From: a virus
Strand: one strand, 5' to 3'
IMG/VR virus record: IMGVR_UViG_3300003323_000820
Location: 1 to 54,467 of that record
Length of the DNA stretch: 54,467 nt
Part shown: piece after piece, positions 1 through 29,487 of the stretch
How the letters are laid out: each line of letters opens with the position of its first letter
Position numbering within the stretch: position 1 is the first letter of the stretch
The notes under the pieces: generated by a model
Databases searched by the model: none
Seen by the model: only the letters and a program-made list of their open reading frames with translations
Told to the model about the DNA's origin: nothing
Translations under genes and position numbers: made by a program

Positions 1-23
1 TTCAAATCCCGCCACCCCGACAG
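1..23. other. attL core (3' end of tRNA-Pro)
   Basis: These 23 bases are identical to 53901-53923. They match the T-loop, 3' T-stem, acceptor strand and discriminator of a tRNA; by comparison with the copy at the right end this is tRNA-Pro(CGG). The rest of the tRNA would lie left of the window. Integration into a tRNA 3' end is standard for tyrosine integrases and leaves an intact tRNA at this end. How far the identity extends leftward cannot be seen. Confidence 0.85.
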
Positions 24-33
24 CTAGGTAGGG

Positions 34-74
34 CCACTGAGGCCGTTTCCCCAGGTGGGAGACGGCCTCAGTGG
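34..74 (+). terminator. Rho-independent terminator after attL
   Basis: A perfect 13-bp stem (34-46 with 62-74, arms CCACTGAGGCCGT / ACGGCCTCAGTGG) and a 15-nt loop are followed by TTTTCT. It sits 11 nt after the att core and would end transcription of the restored tRNA-Pro, replacing the host terminator displaced to 53938-53969. Confidence 0.8.
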
Positions 75-116
75 TTTTCTCCTTCGGGAGCCCTCCTTGC
101 TATGCGTGGCTCTCCG

Positions 117-971: not shown

Positions 972-1008
972 CCGGTAGGCATTTGCTTCACAAGCAAATG
1001 CCTACCGG
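972..1008. promoter_or_regulatory. 37-bp perfect palindrome, candidate operator
   Basis: CCGGTAGGCATTTGCTT (972-988), CAC, then the exact inverse complement (992-1008): 17-bp arms with a 3-nt centre. It lies between the divergent peptide gene and regulator gene and ends 16 nt before the regulator ATG. No U-tract follows, so a terminator is unlikely. It is best read as an operator for the adjacent regulator, although a 5'UTR hairpin is possible because it lies so close to the start. Confidence 0.6.
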
Positions 1009-1024
1009 AGGATTGGGGGGAAAG

Positions 1025-2011
1025 ATGAGCGAACCGGACCGCGAGCATGGAGCTGAAGCGCTGTCAGACGCGGCGCTCCAGCTCTACGCTTCTCTCGCCG
1101 AGGCAGAACAGGAGATCCCTGAATCTCAGCGAGCCGCGCTCCAGGAGCTACTCAGTTACGGTCTCGCGCGTCCGGGGTATTTCCTCCCGAACACATGGGT
1201 GGCGGTTCCGCCGTGGGATGCAGAGGCCGACCTCCTCGCGGCCGAACAGGCTCGCATGGCGTCTTCCCTCGCACGCCTCAGGGAAGTGCCCCGGGCCATG
1301 GTGAAGGCCGCTCAGGCGTACGCAGCCAGCGGGCTGCACATCAGCGGGCGCAGCTACATCATCGAGAGTCGTGAGAAGGTCAACAGCGAGATCGATGCCG
1401 CCCTCAATAACGCCCAGTCGGAAATCACCACAGCCCAACCCGGCAGTCGCAGCCGTACCGCAATGTCGGTCGCCACACCGCGGGACCGCGAGTTGCTCCG
1501 CCGCGGCATCTCGCTGCGCACTCTGTACCACCCGAGCAGTCGCACAAATGCCTTCGTGCAGGAGTACGTGGAGGCAGTGACGGAACTCGGAGGCGAGGTT
1601 AGAACCCTGGGTCTTCAATTTCCCAGAATGATCCTGGTCGACAATTCAGCGGCTTTTATCACCTTGGAGTTGCCGGGAGCGCCGGAGCACGCAGCCTTGC
1701 ACACAACTGACCCAGCTCACATCGCGTGGATGCGCAACGCTGTCTTCGACGCCTTCTGGCCGCTCGGCGAAGTGTGGGATCCGGCAGCTCAAGCGCCCGC
1801 AGCGGCAGCCGACGAGATCAAAGCGACCGTCCTCAAGCTCCTGCTGGACGGGCACACGCAGCGAGCCATCGAGCCGAAGGTGGGGTTGAGCCGATCCGGT
1901 CTGGACCGGGTCATCTCCGACATTAAGGCGGACTACGGAGCAAAAAGTCTTTTCCAGCTCGGGGCACGCTACCGGGAATCAGAGCTATGCCGACCGGAAC
2001 CCGACGAGTAG
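1025..2011 (+). CDS. TrmB/LuxR-like HTH transcriptional regulator
   Basis: 328 residues. The ATG at 1025 is preferred over one at 983 because GGGGGGAAAG precedes it directly and because the 983 start would place the whole right arm of the palindrome inside the gene. Residues ~10-80 resemble the winged-helix N-terminus of TrmB-like regulators; the middle (about 100-240, with RGISLRTLYHPSS) resembles their phospholipase-D-like sensor domain. The last ~60 residues (LLLDGHTQRAI...SRSGLDRVISDI) form a LuxR-type helix-turn-helix. Such proteins are common orphan regulators in Streptomyces. Ligand unknown. The divergent secreted-peptide gene and intervening palindrome suggest autoregulation and possibly peptide sensing. 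Confidence 0.7.
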   Translation: MSEPDREHGAEALSDAALQLYASLAEAEQEIPESQRAALQELLSYGLARPGYFLPNTWVAVPPWDAEADLLAAEQARMASSLARLREVPRAMVKAAQAYAASGLHISGRSYIIESREKVNSEIDAALNNAQSEITTAQPGSRSRTAMSVATPRDRELLRRGISLRTLYHPSSRTNAFVQEYVEAVTELGGEVRTLGLQFPRMILVDNSAAFITLELPGAPEHAALHTTDPAHIAWMRNAVFDAFWPLGEVWDPAAQAPAAAADEIKATVLKLLLDGHTQRAIEPKVGLSRSGLDRVISDIKADYGAKSLFQLGARYRESELCRPEPDE

Positions 2012-2100: not shown

Positions 2101-2433
2101 GTGCGTACCGTGCCTGATGACAACTCCTGGATCACCAACTACCTCACGGCCGTGGGCGACCGGGTGCGTACAGAGAGGCTTCGGCAGAATTTGACCCAGG
2201 AGCGCGTCTACCTCGCGGCAGGTATCGATCGCCGAACACTTCAGGCGATCGAAGCAGGGCAGGGCAACCCGACCGCAGTGACGCTCCTGCGGATCGCGTA
2301 CGTCCTGGATACTCCGCTTAGCGAGTTGGTCGCGGAACCACAGGGGCCCGCCGCCGAGGCCACGGAGGCTCTCGACGGCGGGCCTGCCGCCCTTGGAGCG
2401 GGGCATCGATCAGGGACTGCCGATCAGGAGTAG
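2101..2433 (+). CDS. XRE-family HTH regulator
   Basis: 110 residues. The N-terminal ~70 form a classic XRE/Cro-type helix-turn-helix (GDRVRTERLRQNLTQERVYLAAGIDRRTLQAIEAG); the tail is Ala/Gly-rich and probably disordered. The start is GTG; a second GTG three codons later is possible. A short inverted repeat (GGCTGA 2049-2054 / TCAGCC 2061-2066) lies in the 89-nt gap behind the preceding regulator and could be an operator or weak terminator. The gene is convergent with the lasso exporter, so it could control the element or the lasso genes. Confidence 0.75.
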   Translation: MRTVPDDNSWITNYLTAVGDRVRTERLRQNLTQERVYLAAGIDRRTLQAIEAGQGNPTAVTLLRIAYVLDTPLSELVAEPQGPAAEATEALDGGPAALGAGHRSGTADQE

Positions 2434-2494
2434 CGGTCTGAGGGCCGGCTGACCGATCTTCGGGGGTGCTCCACGGACGGCTTGGTCGGGCGGG

Positions 2495-4462
2495 TCACGG
2501 CTGGGGTTGGTCGCTGTAGGTGCGGGCCTGTGTTTTCCACATGGCCGCGTACTCGCCGTCGTTGGCCAGGAGTGAGTCGTGGGTGCCTTCTTCGAGGAGG
2601 CGTCCGCCGTCGAGGACGATGATGCGGTCGGCGGCGCGGGTGGAGCCGAGGCGGTGGGTGATCAGGATGACGGTGCGGTCGGTGCTGAGGGCTCGGATGC
2701 GGTCGTAGACGGCTTCTTCTGCGCGGGGGTCGAGGGCGGAGGTGGGTTCGTCGCAGATGAGGAGCGGGGCGTCGGCGCGGTAGAAGGCGCGGGCGCCGGC
2801 GATGCGCTGCCATTGGCCGCCGGAGAGGTCGCGGCCTCCCCAGTGGGAGGGGGCGAGGTTGGTGTCGAGGCCGTCGGGGAGGCGGGCGAGGACGTCGTCG
2901 GCGCCGGATGCTTTCGCGGCGGCGTGGACGGCCTGGTCGTCGCCGTCGTCCTGGCCGAGGGTGATGTTCTCGCGGGCGGTGACCTGCCAGCGGGCGATGT
3001 CCTGCGGGAGCATCGCGAGGCGTGACCACACCTGTTCGGGGTCGGCGGTGGCGAGGTCCGTCCCGTCCCAGGTGACGGTGCCGTTGGTGGGGGTGTAGAG
3101 GCCGGCGAGGAGTTTGGCGAGGGTCGACTTGCCCGAACCGTTCGCGCCGACGATCGCCAGCACTTCGCCGCGCCGGACGGTGACGCTGACGCCTTCCAGG
3201 GCGGGCAGTTCACTGCCGGGGTAGTGATAGGTGATGTTGTCGGCGCGGATGACGGACGGGTCGGCCGGGACCGGCACGGGTTCGGCGGGAGGAAGGGCGC
3301 GCTGCTCGGCGTCGGTGAGGAAGGTCTGCCAGTCACCGAGGTACAGGCCGGTCTTATAGGTGGTGTTGATGCCGGTGACCAGCCCGGTCAGCAGGATGCG
3401 GCTGGTCTGGACGGCGATGACGGCGGTCCCGGCGGCGGCCAGAGGGATGCGTCCGGCGGTCACCAGCCACAGCAGGGCCGCGTACACCAGGAGGGTCGCG
3501 ATGCCGGCGAGGGCGTCGCCGAGGAGCTGGTAGCGGGCGGTGGTGCGTCCGACCCTGGCGGCGTGGTCCTCCAGGCGCCGGGTGACGGTGGCGAACTGGT
3601 TCAGCAGCCAGGTGCGCATGGTGTTCGCGCGGACGTCGAGGGCGGTGGGGCGGCCGGAGGTGTTGTAGATCAGGGTGTGGCGCAGGCGGCGGTCGGCCAG
3701 GGTGTGCCGTTCGGCGAGGTGGGCGGCGCGGGCGGCGCGTACGGCGGCGGCGCCGCGCGGGAGGACGGCGAGGAGCAGCAGGGGCAGCAGCAGCGGGTCG
3801 AGGCCGGTGAGGATGCCGGCCGAGGCGAGGATGCCCAGCAGGGCGGCGGCGACCGAGGTGAGGGCGTCGATCATCAGGTGGGCGTCTTTGGAGGCGCGGT
3901 TTGCGGCCTCGCTGTGGTCGCACCAGGCGGGGTCGTCGTAGGAGGCGAGCGGGACGCGGGTGGCGGCGCCCAGGAACGCGAGTTCGGCACGGGAGTCGAC
4001 GCGCGGGCCGATCCGCGCGGTGGTCGCCACGGTGGCCGCGCTGATCAGTGAGCGGGCCATTGCGGCGCCGGTGATGACGGCGAGGGAGGGCAGGGCCTGC
4101 TGGAGCCGGTCGGCCGTGGCTCCGGGGGCGAACAGGGGGGTGAGGGCGCCCCGGGTGGCGTACAGGCCCACGGCGGTCAGCGCGCCGGCGGCGATCTGGA
4201 GGACGGCCAGACGGTACAGGGCGGTGCGGTCCGCAGCCCACGCGAGGCGCAGCGCGGTCGCGGCGAGGGAGGGCAGGCGGCGGGCGATGGTGAGGAAGGT
4301 GTCGTCGAGGGCTGCGTCGTGGCGTTCCGCGCTCACCGTGTACTGCGGGATCACCTCGTCCTGGCCGTCCGTCCGTCGGCGCGACCGGGGGAGGAGGCCG
4401 CGCCGACGGCTGGGCGTGGAGGACGGGGTGCGGGGGCCGCTGCGCGGCTGAGTGTCTGTCAC
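2495..4462 (-). CDS. larD: Lasso peptide ABC exporter
   Basis: 655 residues, a half-size ABC exporter with fused membrane and ATPase domains. Residues ~80-370 hold the membrane segments. The nucleotide-binding domain begins near 405, with Walker A GANGSGKST (439-447), signature LSGGQWQR (546-553) and Walker B LLICDEPTSALD (567-578). LSGGQWQR is the signature form common in lasso exporters. The GTG at 4462 has AGGAGG unusually close, but a stop codon just upstream leaves no alternative. It is last in the cluster, 56 nt after the leader-protease gene. The expected role is export of the mature lasso peptide and self-protection. Confidence 0.88.
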   Translation of the reverse strand: MTDTQPRSGPRTPSSTPSRRRGLLPRSRRRTDGQDEVIPQYTVSAERHDAALDDTFLTIARRLPSLAATALRLAWAADRTALYRLAVLQIAAGALTAVGLYATRGALTPLFAPGATADRLQQALPSLAVITGAAMARSLISAATVATTARIGPRVDSRAELAFLGAATRVPLASYDDPAWCDHSEAANRASKDAHLMIDALTSVAAALLGILASAGILTGLDPLLLPLLLLAVLPRGAAAVRAARAAHLAERHTLADRRLRHTLIYNTSGRPTALDVRANTMRTWLLNQFATVTRRLEDHAARVGRTTARYQLLGDALAGIATLLVYAALLWLVTAGRIPLAAAGTAVIAVQTSRILLTGLVTGINTTYKTGLYLGDWQTFLTDAEQRALPPAEPVPVPADPSVIRADNITYHYPGSELPALEGVSVTVRRGEVLAIVGANGSGKSTLAKLLAGLYTPTNGTVTWDGTDLATADPEQVWSRLAMLPQDIARWQVTARENITLGQDDGDDQAVHAAAKASGADDVLARLPDGLDTNLAPSHWGGRDLSGGQWQRIAGARAFYRADAPLLICDEPTSALDPRAEEAVYDRIRALSTDRTVILITHRLGSTRAADRIIVLDGGRLLEEGTHDSLLANDGEYAAMWKTQARTYSDQPQP

Positions 4463-4478
4463 ACCTCCTGCAACCGTT

Positions 4479-4492
4479 CACCCGTACGGGTG
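4479..4492. repeat. 14-bp palindrome between leader-protease and exporter genes
   Basis: CACCCGTACGGGTG lies in the 56-nt gap between the leader protease and the exporter. There is no U-tract. It may be a small RNA hairpin or protein site; no function is assigned. Confidence 0.35.
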
Positions 4493-4518
4493 GATACGGT
4501 GGCGAAGGGTGGCGAATA

Positions 4519-5232
4519 TCAGTGCGAGTGTTCCACCTCAAGAGCGGTCACGTACGGCCACACTCGGTCGGGTTCGTCCTGTCCGATGATGTGGCCTGCG
4601 GCTTCGATCCACGCGTGCGCGCCGTGCGGGTCGAACCGGGCCCCGACGACCCAGCGGACCCGGCGGCCGGTGAGGGCGGCGGTGAGGTGAGCGGCGAGGG
4701 ATTCCTCCAGGCAGGCGGCTCGGCCCGGCCACCAGCGGGCGGCCCGGCGGACGGCGGCCAGCGCCCGTTCGGCGTCCTCGGCGGACGCGGTCCGGCCGGG
4801 CAGGCGGGTGGCGGCGCGGGCGGCGGTGATCGCGAACCGGACGGGCAGGCACCGCAGCACGAGGAGCGCGCCGGCCAGTGCGAGGTGCCCGGCCGCCAGG
4901 TCGAGGAGGCTGACGGGTGCGGCCGTGGCGAAGCGCACGCCGGGAGCGGGCCGGGGGGCGGGGCGGGCGGCGGGGCGCAGGAGGCCGGTGCGGTCCAGGT
5001 CGGCGGCGAGGGCGGTGAGATCGGCGCGCACTTGCTGGGGGTCGGCGCCCTCGGCCTGCCAGCGGGCGGTGAGCTGGTCGACCGCGTCGGCCGGCGAGGC
5101 GCCGTCGGCGACGGCCACCCACAGCCGGGCGCCGACCGGGTCGAGGAATCGCCACTGGCCCCGTCCCCGGCGGGTGTCCATCAGGGCGATGCCCTGCGGG
5201 GCGAGCGCGGCGTACAGATCGGCGGAGGTCAT
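4519..5232 (-). CDS. larB: Fused lasso leader-binding (PqqD-like) and leader-protease protein
   Basis: 237 residues; the ATG at 5232 overlaps the cyclase stop as ATGA. Residues 1-90 form a PqqD-like RiPP recognition element that binds the precursor leader. Residues ~105-237 form the transglutaminase-like B2 protease, with Cys174 (RAACLEESLA), His206 (GAHAWIE) and Asp219, spaced as expected for the Cys-His-Asp triad. The protein removes the leader and hands the core to the cyclase. Most actinobacterial lasso clusters carry these as two separate small genes. A single fused protein is the form known from proteobacterial McjB-type clusters, so this arrangement is less usual here. Confidence 0.88.
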   Translation of the reverse strand: MTSADLYAALAPQGIALMDTRRGRGQWRFLDPVGARLWVAVADGASPADAVDQLTARWQAEGADPQQVRADLTALAADLDRTGLLRPAARPAPRPAPGVRFATAAPVSLLDLAAGHLALAGALLVLRCLPVRFAITAARAATRLPGRTASAEDAERALAAVRRAARWWPGRAACLEESLAAHLTAALTGRRVRWVVGARFDPHGAHAWIEAAGHIIGQDEPDRVWPYVTALEVEHSH

Positions 5233-7115
5233 CGTGCCGCCTCCTGCTCTGTCGCCGGGGCCGGGGTGTTCTGCCACCAGGTCTCGCGGGTGGTGGGCAG
5301 GGAGGCGAGCCACAGCTCGGTGACGATCAGCGCGTGCAGGCCGGCCAGCGGGGCGGGTTCCCCGCGCGCCGTGCCGTTCAGCGCGGCCAGTGCCTTTGCG
5401 GGGTCGAGGAATCCGGCGTGGGCGAGCTGCGACGTCTCCAGGATGCGGCGCAGGACGGGGGCGTTGGCCCGCAGTCCGGCGTAGACGGAGCCGGTGAACG
5501 GTGTTTTCGTCCGTCGCTCCAGCAGGTACGCCGGGACGGCCCCGGTGAAGGCGGCGCGGGCCAGTGGTTTGAGGTCGCCGGGCCGGTGGCGTTCCCAGCC
5601 GGGGACCGCGTGGCCGGCGTCGATGACGCCGTTGTCGAGGAACGGGGCGTGGAGGGGGACGCTCCACAGTTGGCGGGCGATGGCGTCGTACGTGGCGTGT
5701 CCGTCGCCCATCAGCTCCAGGGCGAGTCGTTCGTGCACCTGCCCGGGGGCGACGTCGGGGTCGGCCGTCTCGGCGCGGTCAGCGACCAAGTCCGCGACCG
5801 CCGCGCGCCCCGCCCGGGTGAGCCACGGCGCCGACGCCGTCGTCCCGCACCAGGTCAGCATCTCCCTCGCCTGCGGCGCCCCTGCCGGACGGTCCAAGGG
5901 CTGCGGTCCGTCCAGCGTGTCCGCGAGCATCCGCAGGGCCTGCGGATGGCTGGTGGCCTCGGTGCGCCGGGCCTGGCGCAGGAGGGGGTGGACGGCGGTG
6001 CGGCGGGCGCGGGCGAGCGCCAGGACGCGGCGGACGGCGTCGAGGCGGTGCCCGGCCCGGTACTGGTCGATGAGCATCGCCGGTACGGCGTCCAGGACGT
6101 CGTCGCCGCCGCGCCCGGTCAGGTGCGCGGACGTCCCGTACGCGGCGGCCGGAGCGAGCTGCAACGCCTTGACTGCGAGCAGCCCGAGGGTGAAGGAAGG
6201 GGTGTCGGTGAACGGGAGCCTGGCCGGGTTGTCGAGGCCGTCGAAGTGGCCGACGCCGTCGCGGGTGCCGTGCACCCACGTGTGCGTGACCGACGCATGG
6301 GCGGCGGCGATCCGCCCGGCGTACAGGACGTCGTCCTGCTCGCCCATGCGGTCGTCGGTGTAGGTCACGGCCAGCAGGGGCCCGTGTGCGGCGGTCAGGC
6401 TGGTGACGGTGGAACTGTCGATCCCCCCGGACAGATCCGAGGAGACCCGGCCCGCCCCCGCCGTACGCCGGCCGACCGCCACGGTCAGCGCCTCCCGCAC
6501 GGCGGCGGCTCCCTCCTCGAAGGACAGTTCCGCCACCGGGTGCGGCACCGGCACGGTCCGCACCGGGCGGCCGTCCTCCAGGACCAGGGCGTGTCCGGGC
6601 AGAACCCGCTGCACCCCGGTGAAGTGACTGGTGCTGCCGCGGACGTCGACACCGCGCACGGTGAACGCGGCCAGCAGGACCGCCGGGTCCGGGGCCGTCC
6701 CCGCGTACGCCGCGAGCGGCGCCGCCGCCGTCGCCCACCACACCCGCTCCCCCTCCTGGCACCAGTACACCGTCACCGTCCCGGCCCGGTCCCCGCAGAC
6801 CCGCACCGTACGGCCGGTACGGACCACACTCAGGTAGGAGCCCGCCAGCCGCGTCGCCCGCGCCCACTCACCCCGCCCCGCTGCCGCGACGGCGGCACCG
6901 AACTCGCCGTCGGTGCCCAGACAGCAGCCGACCGTCAGCAGCCCGGCCGTGCCGTCCGCCGCTCCGAGCACCCGGACCTCTTCCGTGCCGTATCCGGCCG
7001 TCCAGATCCGCGACGCGTCCTCGTCGTACACACATCGCCCCTCCCGGGGCCAACTGGCGGCCCCGGACCCAGCGCCGCCCGGCCCGGAACGGAACACCCC
7101 GGCCGTGAACCTCAT
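5229..7115 (-). CDS. larC: Lasso cyclase (asparagine synthetase homologue)
   Basis: 628 residues from the ATG at 7115; a GTG nine bases upstream is the alternative. The N-terminal ~190 residues have the glutaminase-like fold but no catalytic Cys2, as in lasso cyclases, which need no glutamine. The synthetase domain has the PP-loop SGGIDSS (229-235) and a TGRGGDD motif near 334-340. The enzyme adenylates the side-chain carboxylate of the ring Asp and joins it to the new N-terminal amine of the core. It follows the precursor by 128 nt and overlaps the next gene, indicating one operon. Confidence 0.9.
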   Translation of the reverse strand: MRFTAGVFRSGPGGAGSGAASWPREGRCVYDEDASRIWTAGYGTEEVRVLGAADGTAGLLTVGCCLGTDGEFGAAVAAAGRGEWARATRLAGSYLSVVRTGRTVRVCGDRAGTVTVYWCQEGERVWWATAAAPLAAYAGTAPDPAVLLAAFTVRGVDVRGSTSHFTGVQRVLPGHALVLEDGRPVRTVPVPHPVAELSFEEGAAAVREALTVAVGRRTAGAGRVSSDLSGGIDSSTVTSLTAAHGPLLAVTYTDDRMGEQDDVLYAGRIAAAHASVTHTWVHGTRDGVGHFDGLDNPARLPFTDTPSFTLGLLAVKALQLAPAAAYGTSAHLTGRGGDDVLDAVPAMLIDQYRAGHRLDAVRRVLALARARRTAVHPLLRQARRTEATSHPQALRMLADTLDGPQPLDRPAGAPQAREMLTWCGTTASAPWLTRAGRAAVADLVADRAETADPDVAPGQVHERLALELMGDGHATYDAIARQLWSVPLHAPFLDNGVIDAGHAVPGWERHRPGDLKPLARAAFTGAVPAYLLERRTKTPFTGSVYAGLRANAPVLRRILETSQLAHAGFLDPAKALAALNGTARGEPAPLAGLHALIVTELWLASLPTTRETWWQNTPAPATEQEAAR

Positions 7116-7162
7116 GGTCCCCACCTCGTTTCCCTCGTCGTGTAGCTCGGCTGTTCACACAC

Positions 7163-7209
7163 GAGCGCCCGGGACGAAGCGCGGCCATCGGCCGGAGTCC
7201 CGGGCGCTC
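7163..7209 (-). terminator. Hairpin between lasso precursor and cyclase
   Basis: A 13-bp perfect stem (7163-7175 GAGCGCCCGGGAC with 7197-7209), with an inner CGGCC/GGCCG hairpin in the loop, lies between the precursor stop and the cyclase start. No strong U-tract follows. It probably stabilises the precursor mRNA or partially terminates, giving more precursor than enzyme, as is usual in RiPP operons. Confidence 0.6.
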
Positions 7210-7243
7210 ATTCAGCGGTGCACGCCCCTGTCAGGGCACCCTG

Positions 7244-7375
7244 TTACGTCCAGTACTGGGTGTCGTCCGCCTTGTCGTTCCCGGCGGAGCCGAGGGTGGC
7301 GCCGGTGACCGTGCCCAGCTCGCTCACGGCCGGCGTGACGTAGGGGACGGTCTCGAACTCGATCTGCTTGTCCAT
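7244..7375 (-). CDS. larA: Lasso peptide precursor
   Basis: 43 residues, too short for routine gene callers. AGAGAGG lies six bases before the ATG. The leader carries the lasso recognition pattern Y12-x-x-P15...L20-G21 (PYVTPAVSELG) and Thr27 at the conserved leader -2 position. Cleavage after Leu28 gives the core GSAGNDKADDTQYWT. Gly1 and Asp9 would form a nine-residue macrolactam ring, leaving a six-residue tail DTQYWT. A hand sum gives a neutral monoisotopic mass near 1609.66 Da after ring closure. Cleavage site and ring are inferred from family rules. The gene is first in the order precursor, cyclase, fused leader protease, exporter. Confidence 0.88.
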   Translation of the reverse strand: MDKQIEFETVPYVTPAVSELGTVTGATLGSAGNDKADDTQYWT

Positions 7376-7671
7376 GACTACCTCTCTTTACGAGTCGGTC
7401 GGATGTCCCCCTGGGCGGGCGGGAGCGGCGCAAGATCTCCCTCCCGCCTGAAAGGGGAAGGACCGAGCCCGCCGGATTCACGAGGGCTCCGGCGCGCTCT
7501 GCCCCCAGGAAACGGCCGAACTGCCCTACAAGGAAGGGGGGTTGGTGTTGCCTCGGTGCTGCTTCTCTCCGCCGGGCAGGTCGCCGCGGCCTCAACTCCG
7601 CCTTGAGTCCGCTACGTTCGCTGAAAGCGACCGCGCACAGCGCCGTCCTACCCCGGGGGTGCAGCAGCCAC
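7376..7671. promoter_or_regulatory. Divergent promoter region of the lasso operon
   Basis: 296 bp with no credible gene, between the lasso precursor (minus) and the HTH/TPR-type regulator (plus). It must hold the promoters for both. I do not see a convincing -35/-10 pair or long palindrome, so positions are not assigned. The divergent layout suggests that the regulator controls the lasso operon from here. Confidence 0.5.
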
Positions 7672-9033
7672 ATGCCCGTGATCATCAAACCGCCGAGGCA
7701 CTTACTCGCCGCAGTGCGTGCGCATTACGGCTACACCCTGCGCACCTACGCCGTGGCCGTCGCCGAGCGAGCCGAGGCACTCGGCTACGTAGGCATGGCT
7801 TACCGGCGGGAAAAGGTTGCGCGGTGGGAAGCGGGAGTCGAGCCGGAGATGCCCGCACAGTTAGCCATGGCCGACCTGCACGGGGTCGACCCAGCCCAGG
7901 TGGCGGCGAGAGGATGGCCCAACTGGCTGCTCCTCGCATTGCCCGGACCCGACGTCCTGGCCCCGTTCACCCCGGAGGTCACGCTGTCCGCCCTCGATGA
8001 CCTGGCCGCCGACCCCGCCCGCGCGAACAGCGCCGGCATCCCGCTCCTGCCACCGCTGGTCCTGGAGGCCCTCACCACCCACTGGACCGACCACGTCAAG
8101 GACACCATCGCCCGCGGCATCAGCGGCGGCTACGTCGGCGTCGAGGTCTCCACCGCCATCCACGCCCGCCTCACCGCCCTGTGGCACCTGGACGACTCCC
8201 TCGGCGGCACCCCCTGCACCACCAGCGCCCGCACCGACCTGCGGATGGTCACCAAGCTCCTGCGCCATGCCCGCCATACCGGGCAGCTCACCACCGATCT
8301 CCACTACCTCGCCGCCGAATACGCGCGCTTCCTCGGCTGGGCCGAGTTCGACGCCGGCGACACCCCCGCCGCCCAACGCGCCTGGCACGCCGCCCTGCGC
8401 GCCTCCGCCGAGACCGCCGACCCGGCACACGGCGCCTACCTGCTCTCCAATCTCGCGCTGGCCTGCGTCTACGACGGACAGGCCGGCACGGGCAGCGGTT
8501 TACTCACCACTGCCCGGGACATCGCCGGAACACGTACGACACCGCTGGTCGCCGCGATGATCGACACCTGGCGGGTCCGCGCGACCGCCGCGACCGGCGA
8601 CGCCCGGCAAGCGGCTTTCCTCCTCGCCCAGGCGGAAACCGAGTACGAGCGCGCCCGCGCGGGGGACGACAACCCTGCCTGGGCGTACTGGATGTGCAGG
8701 CCCTCCCACATGGCCGAGACCGGGAAAGCCTTCCTCGACCTGAACGACCCCGCGACCGCCGAGGAACTGCTGACGGAAGGTCTGGCCGCGCTGGAGCCAG
8801 GCGCGATACGCGACCGCGTCCTCTACCTCACCTGGATCGCCACCGCACAGGCCCGCCGCCGCAACCTCGACGCCGCAGCCGAAACCGCGACCACAGCGAT
8901 CGACACCGCCGGTCTCGTCGAATCCGGCCGCTGCACCAGCTTGCTGTCTGACCTCGCTGCCGAACTCCGCCCCCACCGCGAGGCGCGTCCAGTCAGCATG
9001 GTGCTCGATCGTTTAGGCCACGAACAGCGCTGA
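7672..9033 (+). CDS. HTH/TPR-type transcriptional regulator with four TTA codons
   Basis: 453 residues from the ATG at 7672; an upstream in-frame start at 7603 lacks a good ribosome site. Residues ~5-80 resemble an atypical XRE-type HTH, and the remainder is helical with TPR-like repeats (for example AEYARFLGWAEFDAGDTPAAQRAW and YLSNLALACVYDG-like segments), an architecture common in Streptomyces pathway regulators. In-frame TTA leucine codons occur at 7702, 7861, 8500 and 9013, very rare in this GC range, and imply dependence on the bldA tRNA. Divergent from the lasso precursor, it is the obvious candidate regulator of that operon. Its ligand, if any, is unknown. Confidence 0.7.
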   Translation: MPVIIKPPRHLLAAVRAHYGYTLRTYAVAVAERAEALGYVGMAYRREKVARWEAGVEPEMPAQLAMADLHGVDPAQVAARGWPNWLLLALPGPDVLAPFTPEVTLSALDDLAADPARANSAGIPLLPPLVLEALTTHWTDHVKDTIARGISGGYVGVEVSTAIHARLTALWHLDDSLGGTPCTTSARTDLRMVTKLLRHARHTGQLTTDLHYLAAEYARFLGWAEFDAGDTPAAQRAWHAALRASAETADPAHGAYLLSNLALACVYDGQAGTGSGLLTTARDIAGTRTTPLVAAMIDTWRVRATAATGDARQAAFLLAQAETEYERARAGDDNPAWAYWMCRPSHMAETGKAFLDLNDPATAEELLTEGLAALEPGAIRDRVLYLTWIATAQARRRNLDAAAETATTAIDTAGLVESGRCTSLLSDLAAELRPHREARPVSMVLDRLGHEQR

Positions 9034-9065
9034 CAGGCTCCTCCATCCGCTCTGGAGAAGACGAG

Positions 9066-9107
9066 AGCCCGCCGCCGGCACTCGGGGGATGCGCTCGGCG
9101 GCGGGCT
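9066..9107 (+). terminator. Terminator after the HTH/TPR-type regulator
   Basis: A 12-bp stem (9066-9077 AGCCCGCCGCCG with 9096-9107) and an 18-nt loop lie 33 nt after the regulator stop. The U-tract is minimal, as is usual in Streptomyces. Confidence 0.65.
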
Positions 9108-9209
9108 TGGCCGCCCGTGGGGGATTCGGATGGGGCGGCCGTCGGAGTCCCGTTCGCAGCCCACCGGCCGAGAACAGGGGCTTACGGGGCGCGGGCCTGC
9201 CTTCGCGCG

Positions 9210-9329
9210 CTACATCATGCCGTGACGGTTGGGATCGATGCAGCCGCCTGTGGTCGTGCCACAGTGGAAGCACCCCTGGCCCTGGGGCTCGGACGGGGGC
9301 GGGGGCGGGGGCGGCGTTTCGTCGGCCAT
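9210..9329 (-). CDS. 39-residue Pro-rich CxxC peptide
   Basis: MADETP is followed by seven more prolines, then SEPQGQGCFHCGTTTGGC and a short HGMM end. GAAGGA precedes the ATG at 9329. There is no signal peptide, so it is probably cytoplasmic. The three cysteines and a histidine could bind metal. It lies 69 nt after the terminator ending the neighbouring operon and may be transcribed alone or by read-through. Function unknown; too short to rule out chance, but the ribosome site and composition favour a real gene. Confidence 0.5.
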   Translation of the reverse strand: MADETPPPPPPPSEPQGQGCFHCGTTTGGCIDPNRHGMM

Positions 9330-9397
9330 TGCGGTCCTTCGGTTGTAGGTGTGGTGGCCGCCCTCGTCGTGGAGATGACGCGGGCGGCCACCCTGGG

Positions 9398-9432
9398 CCG
9401 GTCCCGGCCTCATCAGGTCAGGCCGGGACCGG
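9398..9432 (-). terminator. Terminator of the small-protein operon
   Basis: A 13-bp perfect stem (9398-9410 CCGGTCCCGGCCT with 9420-9432) and a 9-nt loop lie 48 nt downstream of the last gene of the overlapping minus-strand operon 10817-9480. Confidence 0.7.
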
Positions 9433-9479
9433 GGGGTGCGGGGTGCGACCCTGACCCTGCGGTCGCCATGGGGGTGCTG

Positions 9480-9566
9480 TCAGGACGGCGTCCGCGCCAG
9501 CACCAGGGCGAGGACGGGGGCGGTCACGACCACCACGTACACGAGCACGCCGGTGATCGACTTCAT
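9480..9566 (-). CDS. 28-residue single-pass membrane peptide
   Basis: The sequence is MKSITGVLVYVVVVTAPVLA then LVLARTPS. The ATG at 9566 overlaps the stop of the preceding gene as ATGA, so translation is coupled. About 20 residues are continuously hydrophobic: a transmembrane helix with a short tail. It is last in the operon before the 9398-9432 terminator. Function unknown; the overlap is the main evidence that it is a gene. Confidence 0.55.
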   Translation of the reverse strand: MKSITGVLVYVVVVTAPVLALVLARTPS

Positions 9567-10237
9567 GCGGGGGCCCGTGCCGCTCGGGCCTCGATCTCCA
9601 GGCGGGCGAGGTCGATCGGCTCGACCTCGTGCAGCGAGATGACCGCGCGGGAGGCGTAGATCCAGCGCAGCCGTTTCTCGTCCTCGTACGACACCTCGAC
9701 CAGATCGCCCGGGTCACTGATCAGGTCGAGGGTGTCCGGGTGGACGACGGCCCCGGCGACGCCCCAGGACGGGGTCCAGCCCACGAGAGCCCCGGTCCAG
9801 CCCCGGCGCAGGTGGGGGCACCGCTCGACGGACTGGAGGGCGCAACTCTCGTGCACGGGCGGCACGGTGACCGTCTCGCCCTCCTGGACGGGAGAGCGGT
9901 TGCCGCGGTCGGCGAAGACGAACAGGTGCCGTTCGTCCGCACGGGTGCTGACGGTCGTCGTCCCGCACACCTGGCACAGCATGTGCTCCATCGCCGCCCG
10001 CTGGCGCAGCGGATGCAGGCCCGCGAAGTCCGGCCTGCCACGCCCCCGCGCCAGCGACATCCGCACCCACAGGACTCCGCTGTGCCGGTCCGCGGGGTGC
10101 TCGTTCGCGTAGGCGAGCCGCTCCTCGGCGTCCTCGTTGACCTGCCGTGCAAACCGGACGGGCAGTGTCTGCTCATGGCTCCAGGGGGTTACCCAAGGCA
10201 CTGGCATACCGCGCCAGGACAGCCGGGCGGGCTTCAC
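9563..10237 (-). CDS. Hypothetical zinc-ribbon protein
   Basis: 224 residues from a GTG at 10237, chosen because GGAGGT precedes it and because it overlaps the previous stop as GTGA. CQVC (about residues 90-93), a later Cys with a nearby His, and CPH could bind one zinc. The rest is soluble with no recognisable enzyme motif. The C-terminal part (VEVSYEDEKRLRWIYASRAVISLHEVEPIDLARLE) looks like a compact beta/alpha domain. It is the largest member of a four-gene operon. Function unknown. Confidence 0.65.
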   Translation of the reverse strand: MKPARLSWRGMPVPWVTPWSHEQTLPVRFARQVNEDAEERLAYANEHPADRHSGVLWVRMSLARGRGRPDFAGLHPLRQRAAMEHMLCQVCGTTTVSTRADERHLFVFADRGNRSPVQEGETVTVPPVHESCALQSVERCPHLRRGWTGALVGWTPSWGVAGAVVHPDTLDLISDPGDLVEVSYEDEKRLRWIYASRAVISLHEVEPIDLARLEIEARAARAPA

Positions 10238-10368
10238 GCGGGACCTCCAGAGGCGATCCACCAGACCAGGGCGACGACCAGGGTGGCCAGCACGATGACG
10301 TAGGCGGTACCGAGGGCCACGCGCTGGAAACGGGGCTCGCGGGGACGGGCATGTGTCGGCCTGGTCAC
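10234..10368 (-). CDS. 44-residue single-pass membrane protein
   Basis: It starts with a GTG at 10368 sharing GTGA with the preceding stop and ends with a TGA overlapping the next GTG. After a basic N-terminus (TRPTHARPREPRFQRVALG) comes one hydrophobic helix (TAYVIVLATLVVALVWWIA). The double overlap and membrane character support a real gene. It could anchor or modulate the neighbouring soluble proteins; no family is recognised. Confidence 0.6.
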   Translation of the reverse strand: MTRPTHARPREPRFQRVALGTAYVIVLATLVVALVWWIASGGPA

Positions 10369-10817
10369 CGTGCCTCCAGCGCGGCGGTGAGCTTCTCGCG
10401 GTGGTGGGCGAGCGCGCTGACCGAGAGCGCAAGGTCGCCGACCCGCTTCGACTCCCCCATCAGACCGGGAGCCTCGGGGCGGCCCATCCGCGTGCGGGCC
10501 GTCCTGACGGCGACGAGCGCGGTCTCCGCTTCGACATCGCCCGGCTCCAGGGCCCCGGCCATCCGCTCGACCTCCGGCACCAACTGGCCGAGGCAGGCGA
10601 TGAACTGCTCACCGAACTCGGCCACCTCGTCGTGCCGCAGCAGGGTGCTCTGCGTGCAGTACCAGGTCGCGGCCACACAGATCGAAGCCAGCGACGGAGG
10701 CTCAGTGCCCGTCTCCCTGGGCGACTTCGTGATCGTGCCGCGCGGGCTCACGGCGTATGCCTGCGCGCTTGAGCCAGCGGGCGGGGGCGCTCCCTTAGGG
10801 GCGGTACTGTTCGCCAT
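10365..10817 (-). CDS. Hypothetical helical protein (DUF6415-like)
   Basis: 150 residues from the ATG at 10817, preceded by AAGGAG. The N-terminal ~45 residues are low-complexity. The rest is alpha-helical, with a Trp/Tyr-containing helix (CVAATWYCTQSTLLRHDEVAEFGEQF) and a C-terminal HHREKL helix, reminiscent of DUF6415 proteins frequent near Streptomyces regulators and accessory clusters. That family match is from memory only. It is first in the overlapping operon running to 9480. Confidence 0.6.
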   Translation of the reverse strand: MANSTAPKGAPPPAGSSAQAYAVSPRGTITKSPRETGTEPPSLASICVAATWYCTQSTLLRHDEVAEFGEQFIACLGQLVPEVERMAGALEPGDVEAETALVAVRTARTRMGRPEAPGLMGESKRVGDLALSVSALAHHREKLTAALEAR

Positions 10818-10891
10818 GTTGACGCTCCTTAATAGCGTTGGCCATGCCCCGGGGCCCTGCCAGGCCGCCGGGGTCTGTTGCCGGAGGTGGA

Positions 10892-11320
10892 TCACAACGC
10901 GGCAGACGTCTGACGCCGATCCCGATCCCAGACGGTCACGACGAAGGCGTTGTGGGAGGCCAGCCAAGTGTCGAAGCGGGTCTGTTCAGGGTCACGCAAC
11001 CCGCACATGCGACGCATCGGGGTGACGATTCCCTGAGCCGTCCCCCCTTCGATCTCGGTCTGGAGGCGCAGCCACGCGGGACGTGTGTCGGGAGTCGTGT
11101 TGATGCTCTGTCGGTCGATCAGCTCGCACGCGACAACCCAGTCCCGGGCATCCGCGTACTGCCGCAAGACGGAGAGCACTTTCTCTTCACTGCCGAATTG
11201 AGACACGGGCTCGTCGGCCGGGAGACAGGCGTACAGGACGACTTTGGTCCGCTCAATGTGCCCGCTCGCGGCATCTATGAGCCGCCGGCGGCGGATGAGG
11301 TCTCCGTGTGTCCTCTGCAT
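10892..11320 (-). CDS. Resolvase-fold protein lacking the catalytic serine
   Basis: 142 residues. KVVLYACLPADEP (strand 1 and loop), LRQYADARDWVV (helix), IDRQS and GIVTPMRRMCG follow the secondary-structure order of the serine-recombinase N-terminal domain. The loop that should read Y-x-R-x-S has no Ser and lacks its Arg, and no DNA-binding domain follows, so it should not cut DNA. Such remnant proteins are common in Streptomyces accessory regions. The start is uncertain: ATG at 11320 has only a weak site, and a TTG at 11383 is the alternative. Confidence 0.5.
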   Translation of the reverse strand: MQRTHGDLIRRRRLIDAASGHIERTKVVLYACLPADEPVSQFGSEEKVLSVLRQYADARDWVVACELIDRQSINTTPDTRPAWLRLQTEIEGGTAQGIVTPMRRMCGLRDPEQTRFDTWLASHNAFVVTVWDRDRRQTSAAL

Positions 11321-11499
11321 ACTGTGACTGTCCCGCCACAGAGAGCTGAGATGAAGAAACGCCCCGTACGACTCCGCGACCAAAAGGCTTGCGTAGTCGT
11401 ACGGGGCGTAGAGCTGTGACCTGGTGATCTAGGCCAACTCGCACACGACATGGGAGCGGTTCAGCCCGGTGGGGCCAACACTCGTATGTCGCATACGAG

Positions 11500-12744
11500 T
11501 TAGAGAGCAGTCTTGGCGGTTGCGGGGAGGAAGTTGCCGGCCCCGGTCGCGCCGACGCCGACCAGCTCCGACACCCTCCGCAACCGCGCGGTGGACGCCT
11601 TGCCCACCTTCTGCAAGATCACACTGGGCAGGGCCTGGTGACGGCCCCATCCAGGCGCGTCCGTCAGCGTCTCCTCCAGCACATCCAGCGCCGAGTCCCA
11701 CATCTTCGCGTCCGCGTAGGCCATGGCCTGGTCCATCGCGTACCGATGACGAGCTGCGCCCGAGAGAGCGTCGAGGTCCTCTTCGTGGACATCGCGCATC
11801 AGGGTCAGCGCCTTGCCCGTGTTGCCGAGCGCAACGTTGATGCCGATCGCCTGGGTCGTCGCGGATACCGGACCGAAGAGCGTTCCATGCGCCCGATGCT
11901 CCGAACCCAGCCGCGCTCCGGCAGCGTGCGACTGGCTCAAGTAGTCGGCGGCCCGCTCCTTGTCGCCCATCCGGCTCGCCACGACCGCGGCGAAGTTCAC
12001 GTGCGACCCGTACGCGACCAGAGTAGAAGGGGCAGCCGTCGAGAATCGCGGCTCGATGTCGACGGCCGCCTTCTCCGCCAGGTGCAGCGCCTCCGCCAGC
12101 CTGGCATCACGCAGATACACCCACGCGCGCCCGGACGTCACCAACGCCTGCCGCAAGTCGTCCGCCCCTGCCTGCGCCGCGGCTTGAGCCTGGCCGATCG
12201 CCGCGTAAGCGAGATCCCGGTAGCTCATCAGGTTGGCCACATACCCAGCCACCCGGTAGGCGTCCGACAGCACACCCCATGCCTCGGCCTGTTCTCCGAC
12301 GGGCTGTTCCCGCAGCCGCGCCCCTGCGGCTGTGATGAACTCGGTCGCGACGGCACCGGCCTCCACGTAGTTGCCCGCCCAGTAGATCTCCCAGCACCGA
12401 GTGCTGACTTCGGCGAGTTCCTGGAGGGAAGGAGCTTCCACGGTGTCCGGCAGGATTCCCGCTGCCGTGTCGTGGACTGCGCGTGAGAGCGTGATCATCA
12501 CGTTCCGGTCCGCGTGCTCCATGGCGCGGCGAGGTGCCTGCTGGCCGAGGATCACGGAGGTGTCGACCTTCAGCGCGTCGGCGATCTTCAAGAGGGTCGG
12601 AAGGGTGAGTCGCTTGTCCTGCTCAGCCTGCTGGATGGTGGGCATCGAGAGCCCGGTCATCTCGGAGAGGTCGGACTGTCGGATCTCCCGGCCTCGCAAG
12701 ATCTTGATGCGCTCGCCGGTCGTGTAGTCGCTCCATCGGGGCAT
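11500..12744 (-). CDS. XRE-TPR transcriptional regulator
   Basis: 414 residues; AGGAGG lies seven bases before the ATG. Residues ~8-68 are a canonical XRE HTH (GERIKILRGREIRQSDLSEMTGLSMPTIQQAEQDKRLTLPTLLKIADAL), and residues ~105-390 are TPR-like helical repeats. This architecture places it with Streptomyces regulators of secondary metabolism and accessory elements, many of which sense small ligands. An interrupted inverted repeat directly upstream (12756-12782) is a likely autoregulatory operator. It borders the phage lysis module and may separate cargo from phage expression. Confidence 0.8.
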   Translation of the reverse strand: MPRWSDYTTGERIKILRGREIRQSDLSEMTGLSMPTIQQAEQDKRLTLPTLLKIADALKVDTSVILGQQAPRRAMEHADRNVMITLSRAVHDTAAGILPDTVEAPSLQELAEVSTRCWEIYWAGNYVEAGAVATEFITAAGARLREQPVGEQAEAWGVLSDAYRVAGYVANLMSYRDLAYAAIGQAQAAAQAGADDLRQALVTSGRAWVYLRDARLAEALHLAEKAAVDIEPRFSTAAPSTLVAYGSHVNFAAVVASRMGDKERAADYLSQSHAAGARLGSEHRAHGTLFGPVSATTQAIGINVALGNTGKALTLMRDVHEEDLDALSGAARHRYAMDQAMAYADAKMWDSALDVLEETLTDAPGWGRHQALPSVILQKVGKASTARLRRVSELVGVGATGAGNFLPATAKTAL

Positions 12745-12755
12745 ACTCTGGCCTC

Positions 12756-12782
12756 CTGTTCCTAAGCGTCCACTTGGAACAG
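12756..12782. promoter_or_regulatory. Inverted repeat upstream of the XRE-TPR gene
   Basis: CTGTTCC (12756-12762) and GGAACAG (12776-12782) are separated by 13 bp. Including the inner AAG/CTT, the arms pair over 10 bp with one bulged base. It overlaps the region where the promoter should be, 12-38 bp before the ATG. Likely operator. Confidence 0.5.
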
Positions 12783-12918
12783 TACGCCCGCGAGATGTCG
12801 GCGTACGGGGTAAGGCCCTTACGGATCAATTTCGTGAGGGCCTTCGCCGTTGAACGACTTCCTGTGACCAGTGCCATGCGGTCTTTAAGCCAGCATCGCT
12901 GTGTAGGGACGCAGAAGT

Positions 12919-12964: not shown

Positions 12965-13249
12965 TCAGCGTGTGAGTAGGGACAGAGCGCCGGTGGCTGC
13001 GCCGGCGACGCCAGTGAGCATGCCGACGGCGGCTGGAGGCCACTGACGTCGCTTCAACGCCTCGACTTCGGCGCGTAGTTCGGAGATCTCCTGGCCGGTG
13101 TCCTCGCGTAGCTGTTCCACGTCACGCTCGGTTCGGGTAGACCGCTCGACGATGACGGCGAGTTGCCCTTTCATCTCGGCGAACCCCGTTTCCACCGTGC
13201 CGAGGAGGCGTGCCAGTTCGACTGCGACGGACGACTCTGCGGGCGTCAC
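12965..13249 (-). CDS. Holin-like protein with coiled coil and C-terminal membrane helix
   Basis: 94 residues from a GTG at 13249 that overlaps the previous stop. Residues ~15-68 are a charged amphipathic helix or coiled coil (DVEQLREDTGQEISELRAEVEALKR), followed by one hydrophobic helix (AAVGMLTGVAGAATGALSLL) at the very C-terminus. This is the layout of XhlA-like lysis accessory proteins. It is the last gene of the late operon and partner of the upstream holin. Confidence 0.65.
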   Translation of the reverse strand: MTPAESSVAVELARLLGTVETGFAEMKGQLAVIVERSTRTERDVEQLREDTGQEISELRAEVEALKRRQWPPAAVGMLTGVAGAATGALSLLTR

Positions 13250-13575
13250 TCACGGCTCCTGACGCTGGCCGAGCCGCTGCTCAGGTACCGCGCACCGTCG
13301 ACAGGCTCCAGTGCCTCGACCTTGGGGTAGGACGGCGGTCTCGCCCATCCGAGGAACACACCCGCGAGGTTCTGTATGAAGCCTCCGGGCAACCGCTTGC
13401 CAAGCAGTTCGAGCAGTCGGAACGTGAGGTAGTAGATGAACGCGAGGATGATCGTCACGACACTAACGACGGTTGTCGAGTCGATGTCGATACGCGTTCG
13501 TACAGCGAGGGTGAGCACCCATCCGGCGACGAGCGGGACGCCCGTCCGCATGGTGGAGACGAACAGACCGGTCAT
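13246..13575 (-). CDS. Putative holin
   Basis: 109 residues with GGGGGA before the ATG. Two hydrophobic segments lie at ~12-25 (VPLVAGWVLTLAV) and ~34-55 (TTVVSVVTIILAFIYYLTF), followed by a soluble tail. This is the typical size and topology of actinophage holins, and the gene directly follows the endolysin. It would form membrane lesions that release the lysin. Confidence 0.7.
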   Translation of the reverse strand: MTGLFVSTMRTGVPLVAGWVLTLAVRTRIDIDSTTVVSVVTIILAFIYYLTFRLLELLGKRLPGGFIQNLAGVFLGWARPPSYPKVEALEPVDGARYLSSGSASVRSRE

Positions 13576-13635
13576 GGCCGGTCCCCCTTTCGGTAGTGAG
13601 AGAGGATCGGCCGCCCGGCGGCGGCCGGGCGCCGG

Positions 13636-14451
13636 TCAGGCGACGACGTCGAACCCGTACTTCTGGCCGAGGCGCTTGAGCGTCGTCATACCGGGCGTGC
13701 CGTCGGCGTCGCCGCCCGGCTCGGTACCTTGGAACCCGCACCGCTCCTGCCACAGGCTGTAGGCGCTGCGGGTGGCTGTGCCGGCGTGCCCGTCGGCGTA
13801 CTGCCGCGCGAGCAGCTTCTCGGCCACGAGTGCGTTCTCGACGTAGATCGTCGGCTTGTACGAGACCGGCGTGCCCTTCTTCGGCGGGTCGACCTTGAAC
13901 GCCTTCACGAGCGCCTTGAGCGACACCTGCGGCCGAGTCGAGGGCGCGTTGCCGCTCGGGCTGGTGGGCTTCGGCGGCACCTTGTACGCGGGGCGCCCGA
14001 ACCCGGCGATATCGCGCACGACCCTTGCGCGCCTTGCGCACACGTTCGCGGTGTTGCCCTCGATCGTGAACACGTACTGATGGTCGTCCGAGACGCCTGT
14101 GACGATGCCGACGTGATCGATCTTGCCGATCTCGCTCGACCCGCCCCAGTCGAAAAAGATGACGTCGCCGGGCCGGATGCCGCTCGCCTTGATCCCGTTC
14201 GTCATGGCGTGCCACTGGCCGTGTTCCTTGAATGCCTGCGCGTGCGCCACGGTGTACGCGAAGTCGGTGCCGAAACACACCGCCTCGTACTCGTCCGCGT
14301 CGACCGCAGCGCGGGTGATCGTGGCGTTGCACCACGCGAAGTTCCCGTTGTACGCAGCCCCGTTGCGGCCCCTGTACCACGACTGGATCTCGTTCGGTTC
14401 GCCGGTCCCGATCCAGCGTTCCATTTGCGTGATCATCGCGTCGACGCTCAT
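13636..14451 (-). CDS. Endolysin (CHAP-type hydrolase with C-terminal binding domain)
   Basis: 271 residues. Catalytic Cys41 (NFAWC), His113 (GKIDHVGIV) and the following EGNT segment match a CHAP/NlpC-P60 amidase or endopeptidase core spanning about 15-145. A Pro/Ser-rich linker follows, then a C-terminal segment ending ADGTPGMTTLKRLGQKYGF, typical of a peptidoglycan-binding repeat. The start overlaps the preceding stop as ATGA. It lies beside the holin and is the likely lysis enzyme. Confidence 0.82.
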   Translation of the reverse strand: MSVDAMITQMERWIGTGEPNEIQSWYRGRNGAAYNGNFAWCNATITRAAVDADEYEAVCFGTDFAYTVAHAQAFKEHGQWHAMTNGIKASGIRPGDVIFFDWGGSSEIGKIDHVGIVTGVSDDHQYVFTIEGNTANVCARRARVVRDIAGFGRPAYKVPPKPTSPSGNAPSTRPQVSLKALVKAFKVDPPKKGTPVSYKPTIYVENALVAEKLLARQYADGHAGTATRSAYSLWQERCGFQGTEPGGDADGTPGMTTLKRLGQKYGFDVVA

Positions 14452-25463: not shown

Positions 25464-26120
25464 TCAGCCGCCGGACGGGGCGAGCGCCCGCCAGCCGGGG
25501 CCGTCGATCCAGTTGCGGCACGAGGTGCCGACCGTGCTGTCGCGGTACGCGGTGAGGGTGACCGGCCGGGTCGTCGGATCCGACCGCGACCACGTCTCGT
25601 CGTCCTTGTCCGTGAGCCGAGCCCGCGGCATGAACTTGACGACGTAGATCTCTCCGCCGCTGTCGCCGTAGTCCAGCCCGATGAACAGCAGCCGGCGGAA
25701 GGGGTTGCGCGGCGACTTGGCCCGGTCCCACGTCCACGCGGTACCGAGAGCGGGCAGCGCGCCCGCGCCGGAGAGCGGCAGCCCCTCGTACAGGGCGACC
25801 GTCGCGGCGTTCGTCTCCTGCGGCGAGAACGACACGGTGAGCACGTCGGACTCGACGTCGCTGCGGGTCGGCTCGGCGGACTGCGACGAGGTGACGTCGG
25901 ACATCGAGACGTCGCTCGGGAAGCTGATCCCGTCATCGGTGGTGTAGCCGATCGGCATGTACCCGGCCGGGATCGTGGCGAGGGTGCCGTCGGCCGAGTT
26001 GAACGGGTTCGAGATCACGGCGGTCGAGATGTCCGCCGCGAACACGGCCTGCACGAGCTGCTTGCGGATGTACTCGGTGTGCAGCCCGGTTTCGAGCGAC
26101 ACCGGGGTCGGTGTGGTCAT
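25464..26120 (-). CDS. Major tail protein
   Basis: 218 residues from the ATG at 26120, with GGAGGG upstream. A predominantly beta protein (VSMSDVTSSQSAEPTRSDVESDVLTVSFSPQET, LLFIGLDYGDSGGEIYVVKFMPRARL), located between the tail terminator and the chaperones, exactly where the tube-forming subunit is expected. Confidence 0.85.
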   Translation of the reverse strand: MTTPTPVSLETGLHTEYIRKQLVQAVFAADISTAVISNPFNSADGTLATIPAGYMPIGYTTDDGISFPSDVSMSDVTSSQSAEPTRSDVESDVLTVSFSPQETNAATVALYEGLPLSGAGALPALGTAWTWDRAKSPRNPFRRLLFIGLDYGDSGGEIYVVKFMPRARLTDKDDETWSRSDPTTRPVTLTAYRDSTVGTSCRNWIDGPGWRALAPSGG

Positions 26121-26194
26121 GCTGTGTCCCTCCATGGGAAACCCCGGCCGGCGAGCGGCTCGGGGGCGAGTGGTCAGGGTGGCGGGTGAGCCGG

Positions 26195-26602
26195 TCAGGG
26201 GGCGGCGAGCGCCTTGCCGCGCAGGGACACCTCGACGGCGAACGAGGCGCGTTCCTGCCCGCTCTCCGGGTCGGGGGAGGTGTTCGGCCCGCCCACGTCG
26301 ACGACGTCGTACGCGACCACACCCCGCCACCCTGGGATCGCGAACACGAGCGCCCGCACGACCTTGACGAGGTCCGCGACGGCGCCCTCGTCCGGCCCCC
26401 AGCACGTGAAGTCGAGCCGCGGCCGGTCCGTGATCCTGTCGATCCGGCTGCCGCCGACGCGCTCGATCCGCACGAACGAGGGCGGGCGCGAGGACGGCAC
26501 GCGGGTGACGACCCGGACGCCGAGACCGGCGGCGTCGAGCGCCGCCTGCAAGTACGTGCGCACGACGTCGACGGCGTCGGGGAACGCGACCGGCGCCGCC
26601 AT
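26195..26602 (-). CDS. Tail terminator / tail completion protein
   Basis: 135 residues from the ATG at 26602, which shares a base with the upstream stop. It starts FPDAVDVVRTYLQAALDAAG...VVTRVPSSRPPSFVRIERVGG, the typical opening of actinophage tail terminator proteins that cap the tube and join it to the head. It lies just before the major tail gene. Confidence 0.75.
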   Translation of the reverse strand: MAAPVAFPDAVDVVRTYLQAALDAAGLGVRVVTRVPSSRPPSFVRIERVGGSRIDRITDRPRLDFTCWGPDEGAVADLVKVVRALVFAIPGWRGVVAYDVVDVGGPNTSPDPESGQERASFAVEVSLRGKALAAP

Positions 26603-26880: not shown

Positions 26881-26884
26881 GTGA

Positions 26885-27669: not shown

Positions 27670-27673
27670 CGCC

Positions 27674-29055: not shown

Positions 29056-29069
29056 GGCTCAGCCCCCTT

Positions 29070-29471: not shown

Positions 29472-29487
29472 GTGATGCTCCTCGGTG

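Follow-up and report, generated by a model that had tools for sequence, protein, structure and literature searches.

A lasso peptide gene cluster in an exchangeable cargo position of a Streptomyces prophage

The window analysed in this work, the whole 54,467-bp IMG/VR record IMGVR_UViG_3300003323_000820, corresponds to a prophage in the 3' end of a Streptomyces tRNA-Pro(CGG) gene and carries near its left end the genes for a lasso peptide, one type of ribosomally synthesized and post-translationally modified peptide (RiPP). The genes for the precursor, the cyclase, a protein in which a RiPP recognition element (RRE) is fused to a protease, and an ABC exporter form a contiguous operon that runs on the minus strand from position 7375 to 2495. 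A preliminary description of this DNA had claimed a complete, uninterrupted operon between these positions, and profile matches as well as homologous clusters now account for each of its parts.

The precursor gene (A, 7244-7375), recognized by comparison with homologous precursors, encodes 43 residues, with the leader and the core reading MDKQIEFETVPYVTPAVSELGTVTGATL / GSAGNDKADDTQYWT. The leader contains the YxxP...LG motif and Thr at position -2, and the core offers an acceptor residue within positions 7-9, where lasso precursors have Asp or Glu. Thr-2, Gly1, Ala3, Asp9, Asp10, Thr11 and Tyr13 are invariant across nine homologous precursors (the start residues of four of them were assigned by hand), and the invariance of Gly1 and Asp9 fits the predicted Gly1-Asp9 macrolactam of the core GSAGNDKADDTQYWT. 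The cyclase (C, 5229-7124, start codon uncertain) is asparagine-synthetase-like (Asn_synthase, PF00733, 6e-32), retains the ATP-pyrophosphatase loop SDLSGGIDS and is 61-63% identical to its homologues. It matches the profile of the albusnodin/ikarugamycin macrolactam cyclases (NF033561) at 2e-80, with a score of 270.9 bits that lies below the curated cut-off of 300; by this comparison it is related to that subfamily, and we do not file it as a member. Its gene overlaps by 4 bp the gene of the fused B protein (4519-5232), which joins a PqqD-like RRE (PqqD, 2.5e-7) to a transglutaminase-like leader peptidase of the B2 type (NF033537, lasso_biosyn_B2, 6e-20, above the cut-off), the latter with Cys174 and His206 invariant in seven homologues. 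The exporter (D, 2495-4462; ABC_tran, 2e-29) has intact Walker A (GANGSGKST) and LSGGQ motifs and shares 77-78% identity with the exporters of three lasso clusters.

Divergently from the operon lies a gene for a regulator of the NsdA family (7714-9033, plus strand; NF053720, 1e-83), whose members have been connected in Streptomyces with development and the control of antibiotics. A regulator 84% identical to it stands beside the lasso cluster on a plasmid of Streptomyces sp. YIM 121038, and remoter relatives adjoin four other lasso loci; judged by these neighbourhoods, regulator and lasso genes move together. The same lasso genes occur in the same order on three Streptomyces plasmids, with 59-78% protein identity for the enzymes and the exporter and 63-65% for the precursor, and homologous clusters at 59-78% protein identity confirm that every open reading frame (ORF) of the lasso cluster is a gene. 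The ratio of nonsynonymous to synonymous substitution rates between relatives (about 0.2-0.5 for the exporter, the protease, the cyclase and the regulator) suggests that these four genes are under purifying selection between relatives, a value that is silent on the time spent inside a phage. In the 14 genomes with lasso relatives, a capsid protein of the type found in the window is absent or remote (32% identity at best), and hence the clusters of these relatives lie outside the phage type of the window. On linear Streptomyces plasmids (L006, L007) the lasso clusters are found near a site-specific integrase and a helix-turn-helix (HTH) gene, and ligA lies near the cluster on the plasmids of L007 and L008.

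The limits of the prophage are defined by its attachment sites. The 45-bp att core is complete at attR (53879-53923, plus strand), where it is identical to bacterial tRNA-Pro loci and matches tRNA-Pro(CGG) from the anticodon loop to the 3' end; it is followed by the terminator that is found after tRNA-Pro(CGG) in other Streptomyces genomes. The att sequence forms the end of bacterial tRNA-Pro genes in loci L111-L130. At attL (1-23, plus strand) the window edge leaves the last 23 bp of the core, which yields an exact repeat of 22-23 bp at positions 1 and 53901-53923, with none expected by chance. The preliminary description had pointed out that a third copy of att at about 12.9 kb would make the cluster a separate element beside the phage, and no such copy is present in the window at up to 3 mismatches. 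The arm next to attL contains a strong rho-independent terminator (32-76, plus strand, with a 20-bp stem, from a terminator scan), which would end the transcript of the restored tRNA-Pro gene. Integrase arm-type repeats of the 9-mer TGCCCCAGA occur on the plus strand in two 11-bp-spaced pairs, one at 137 and 148 (137-156) and the other at 53764 and 53775 (53764-53783). These four copies, found only at the ends of the window (0.54 expected; none of 100 shuffles reaches four), agree with the earlier claim of arm-type repeats outside the cluster on both sides. Since att sites and arm repeats are confined to the ends, the unit excisable by this integrase would comprise 53.9 kb, with the cluster included, a size between those of phages VWB (49.2 kb) and SF3 (60.9 kb).

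The integrase in question is a tyrosine integrase (52204-53754, plus strand; phrog_1, 1.5e-39), which together with the att and arm sites bounds the genome, and an excisionase-like gene (50689-50919, minus strand; phrog_66, 7e-6) precedes it. The other phage genes assigned with PHROGs, all on the minus strand, include the lysis region (12965-14451, with a small protein at 12965-13249, a holin-like protein at 13246-13575 and the endolysin at 13636-14451), the tape measure protein (20212-24555) and the head/tail and packaging genes (25464-34160), among them the major tail protein, the capsid (27997-29055), the portal (31029-32459) and the large terminase (32484-34160). The terminase, portal, capsid and tail genes are homologous to those of VWB and SF3 and follow the same order. 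We regard the window as a temperate Streptomyces phage that is nearly complete and has VWB/SF3-like structural genes; the lasso cluster lies inside its att-bounded unit and is flanked by phage DNA on either side, as expected of a phage-carried biosynthetic gene cluster (BGC). In its catalytic half the integrase contains a stretch of LacI-type HTH sequence (phrog_11145, around residues 301-347), and full-length relatives are common in Streptomyces.

The genes next to the cluster are those of a phage. Towards attL there are an arm gene to which no function was assigned (983-2011, plus strand) and a small Cro/C1-type HTH gene (2101-2433, plus strand; HTH_3, 3e-11), with relatives in VWB (gp58, 34% identity, by attP) and in L069, L073, L075, L134, L135 and L154. 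Towards the lysis genes there are a gene of phrog_30088 (9563-10237, minus strand; 6e-23), the family to which gp57 of VWB also belongs (1e-123), and an XRE/TPR regulator of phrog_5823 (11500-12744, minus strand; 5e-60), a family that includes VWB gp56 and SF3 gp26. The cluster thus lies between attL and the lysis genes as initially described, with phage genes intervening on both sides. Among the loci compared, the genes at 9563 and 2101 find matches only in the window itself and in phage loci. The XRE/TPR regulator was rejected as a phage-only marker, as its family also occurs in chromosomal loci outside prophages, and the argument for a cargo slot therefore rests on the genes at 9563 and 2101, the integrases and the att sites. 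Outside recognisable prophages, members of the XRE/TPR regulator family are found near tgmBC (L177, L178, L179), which may point to a wider association of the regulator with ATP-grasp RiPPs.

Searching IMG/VR with the XRE/TPR regulator, we found a sister prophage (UViG_2866151290_000001, hereafter L160) that ends in all 45 bp of the att core, with the same arm after it. In blastn comparisons L160 matches positions 1-2354 of the window at 86.5%, att arm included, and positions 9431-12851 at 82.8%; it keeps the hairpin of the arm terminator, has copies of TCTGGGGCA in its arm, and encodes homologues of the genes at 983, 2101, 9563 and 11500 with 89%, 80%, 78% and 92.5% identity, respectively. 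Between the two matches the window has 7,076 bp and L160 has 1,487 bp of other cargo. These breakpoints delimit a cargo block at 2355-9430 that contains, besides the lasso operon and the divergent regulator of the NsdA family, a 39-residue ORF (9210-9329, MADETPPPPPPPSEPQGQGCFHCGTTTGGCIDPNRHGMM); the latter has no family match and no relative among the loci compared. The cargo is thus larger than the 2495-7375 operon to which the preliminary description had confined it. We considered the cargo of L160 as an FxLD system and dropped this assignment: its methyltransferase matches TIGR04188 best, at a score under the cut-off, its 44-residue ORF has no match, and the cargo was left unclassified. 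The tail genes of L160 are unlike those of the window, which indicates that this arm is common to phages whose structural genes differ. In VWB, the flanking genes have their homologues in gp57 and gp58, which adjoin each other beside attP, and in the G380 prophage nothing but a DUF6082 gene and a short ORF separates the same two genes. The match of L160 on both flanks, with other cargo between them, and the adjacency in VWB lead us to regard the lasso cluster as a cassette that occupies a cargo slot of the phage. The comparison of related prophages that had been proposed from the outset therefore places the cluster within the phage genome, as had been claimed. The location, the completeness and the exchangeability of the cassette can be read from the DNA itself.

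The slot is not reserved for lasso genes. Of 393 Streptomyces genomes, 24 yielded relatives of the capsid protein. In three of these prophages (G088, G091 and G400) and in a fourth related one, UViG_3300049172_000079, the slot is taken by tgmABC, a RiPP cassette of the ATP-grasp class (families TIGR04186/04187/04188). Direct repeats derived from the end of tRNA-His, about 53.7 kb apart, enclose the cassette of G088, which likewise has a divergently arranged regulator of the NsdA family; outside the cassette there is a serine integrase in G091 and a tyrosine integrase in G400 (whose prophage is also UViG_2868075656_000002). Three of the 38 tgmB genes in the 24 prophage-bearing genomes lie 19-22 kb from a capsid gene, with 0.08-0.2 expected (P 9e-5 to 1e-3), an enrichment above chance in three prophages that is suggestive, the distance windows having been set after the data were seen. 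No recognised RiPP genes occupy the slots of VWB, G380 and G177. It is somewhat more probable than the opposite that VWB/SF3-like Streptomyces phages possess a dedicated RiPP slot between the lysis-side accessory genes and att, into which lasso, tgmABC and other cassettes are swapped whole, and that these phages thereby spread and select RiPPs among streptomycetes.

With considerable confidence we propose that the window represents an att-bounded Streptomyces prophage with a discrete, exchangeable lasso cassette. The cassette would be packaged and transferred with the phage and would be expressed in the lysogen under its own regulator. From what is known of these protein families, the RRE would bind the leader of the precursor, the B2 protease would cut after Leu(-1), the cyclase would activate Asp9 and close the ring around the tail, and exporter D would secrete the product, presumably a lasso peptide of 15 residues with a Gly1-Asp9 ring and a predicted [M+H]+ of about 1610.67. 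The most likely benefit, to which we would give an even chance, is lysogenic conversion in which the secreted peptide inhibits related non-lysogenic streptomycetes, the exporter protecting the producer.

Several observations weigh against this proposal. The carriage rests on a single viral record, with no second lasso-carrying phage found; the attL edge is cut by the start of the window, the core being 45 bp long at attR and in L160; the lasso relatives otherwise reside on Streptomyces plasmids and genome contigs; and the cassette has a GC content of 74.4%, compared to 70.0% in the structural genes, which fits a recent entry. The lasso cassette may thus be a single recent acquisition. A neutral, silent passenger of this kind would agree with the difference in GC content, with the mosaic nature of the phage arms and with the one phage found to carry the cassette, but all the cassette genes are intact, selection between relatives is purifying (with the restriction stated above), and RiPP-type cassettes recur in this slot across different prophages, so that we regard this possibility as improbable. 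Less improbable, though still doubtful, is that the carriage is real and the peptide acts against other phages, by superinfection exclusion, or on host signalling. The presence of an NsdA-family regulator in the cassette and the strong conservation of the lasso core would suit such a role, and anti-phage roles have been proposed for RiPPs (PMC11118758; discussed in PMC12715929); against it, general family searches, which included no defence library, recognised no known defence gene by the cassette.

Two further explanations would remove the cluster from the phage altogether. It could be part of an island beside the phage or of another integrative element stacked at tRNA-Pro, a site used by many elements: the integrase family was matched in 99 of 393 Streptomyces genomes and stands next to tRNA-Pro in several of them, and the lasso relatives on plasmids lie near integrases. 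However, no internal att copy is present at up to 3 mismatches, no second integrase was found between 1 and 13 kb, and phage-type genes flank the cluster on both sides in the order also seen in L160 and VWB; given the missing third att copy and the L160 comparison, we rejected a stacked element as very improbable. Since the window is an IMG/VR record, it could also be an assembly chimera of a lasso contig and a phage contig, yet both junctions fall into the slot where other phages hold other cargo and two unrelated joins would be needed, which makes this explanation hardly credible. Thus, phage carriage of an exchangeable lasso cassette remains our preferred interpretation.

RiPP clusters carried by phages are known, as exemplified by sublancin on the Bacillus phage SPbeta, and lasso clusters are patchily spread in Streptomyces. 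In IMG/VR, queries with the B protein, the cyclase and the exporter found no second phage with lasso genes of this family, and a query with the cyclase found no second phage with a lasso cyclase in INPHARED. A survey of 2,112 actinobacterial prophages with antiSMASH reported small BGCs in 13 of them and named class I lanthipeptides; its main text does not contain the word lasso (PMC10023795). The searched titles, abstracts and text passages of the literature yielded no description of a lasso or graspetide cluster carried by a prophage or temperate phage, in keeping with the preliminary description, which knew of no well-described case; the priority of a phage-borne lasso cluster is thus not certain. 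An att-bounded phage with a lasso cluster and a sister with other cargo at the same breakpoints open transfer by phages to a direct test. Should selection favour RiPPs in this slot, temperate phages would not only carry modified peptides but also benefit from them, and the arms of prophages would be a place to seek new ones.

With respect to known phages, the window resembles SF3 and VWB in its structural genes (mostly 53-85% and 47-86% identical, respectively) and in the order of the lysis genes, the phrog_5823 regulator, the accessory genes and att/integrase. Both phages have other integrases; VWB is free of cargo between gp57 and gp58, whereas SF3 has at the cargo position a B12-binding radical SAM protein, a thymidylate kinase and a NUDIX gene (L131, 25382-28755). 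We also observed that the record of phage SF1 (L132) packs two head/tail modules, at 1-17 and 17-37 kb, into 43 kb; the second matches that of SF3, and the record may be a mixed assembly. The tgmABC cassettes occupy the same cargo slot, but belong to another RiPP class with other enzymes. As in the case of sublancin on SPbeta, we deal with a RiPP cluster on a temperate phage as putative cargo for lysogenic conversion; however, sublancin is a glycocin in Bacillus, while here the cluster is of the lasso type and the slot appears to swap RiPP types. The lasso cluster on plasmid pSSP121038 of YIM 121038 (L006) has the same four genes and the divergent NsdA-family regulator at 59-84% protein identity, but resides on a 968-kb linear plasmid, has one more small ORF, placed between B and D, and encodes the core GSASANNADDTEYWQ. 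Finally, the lasso clusters with NF033561 cyclases share with the present one the precursor with a YxxP leader and Thr(-2), the asparagine-synthetase-like cyclase, the RRE, the B2 protease and the ABC exporter. The present cluster differs from them in its core GSAGNDKADDTQYWT, in the fusion of the RRE with the protease, in a cyclase that scores under the cut-off, in having no acetyltransferase gene that we could see, and in being carried by a phage.

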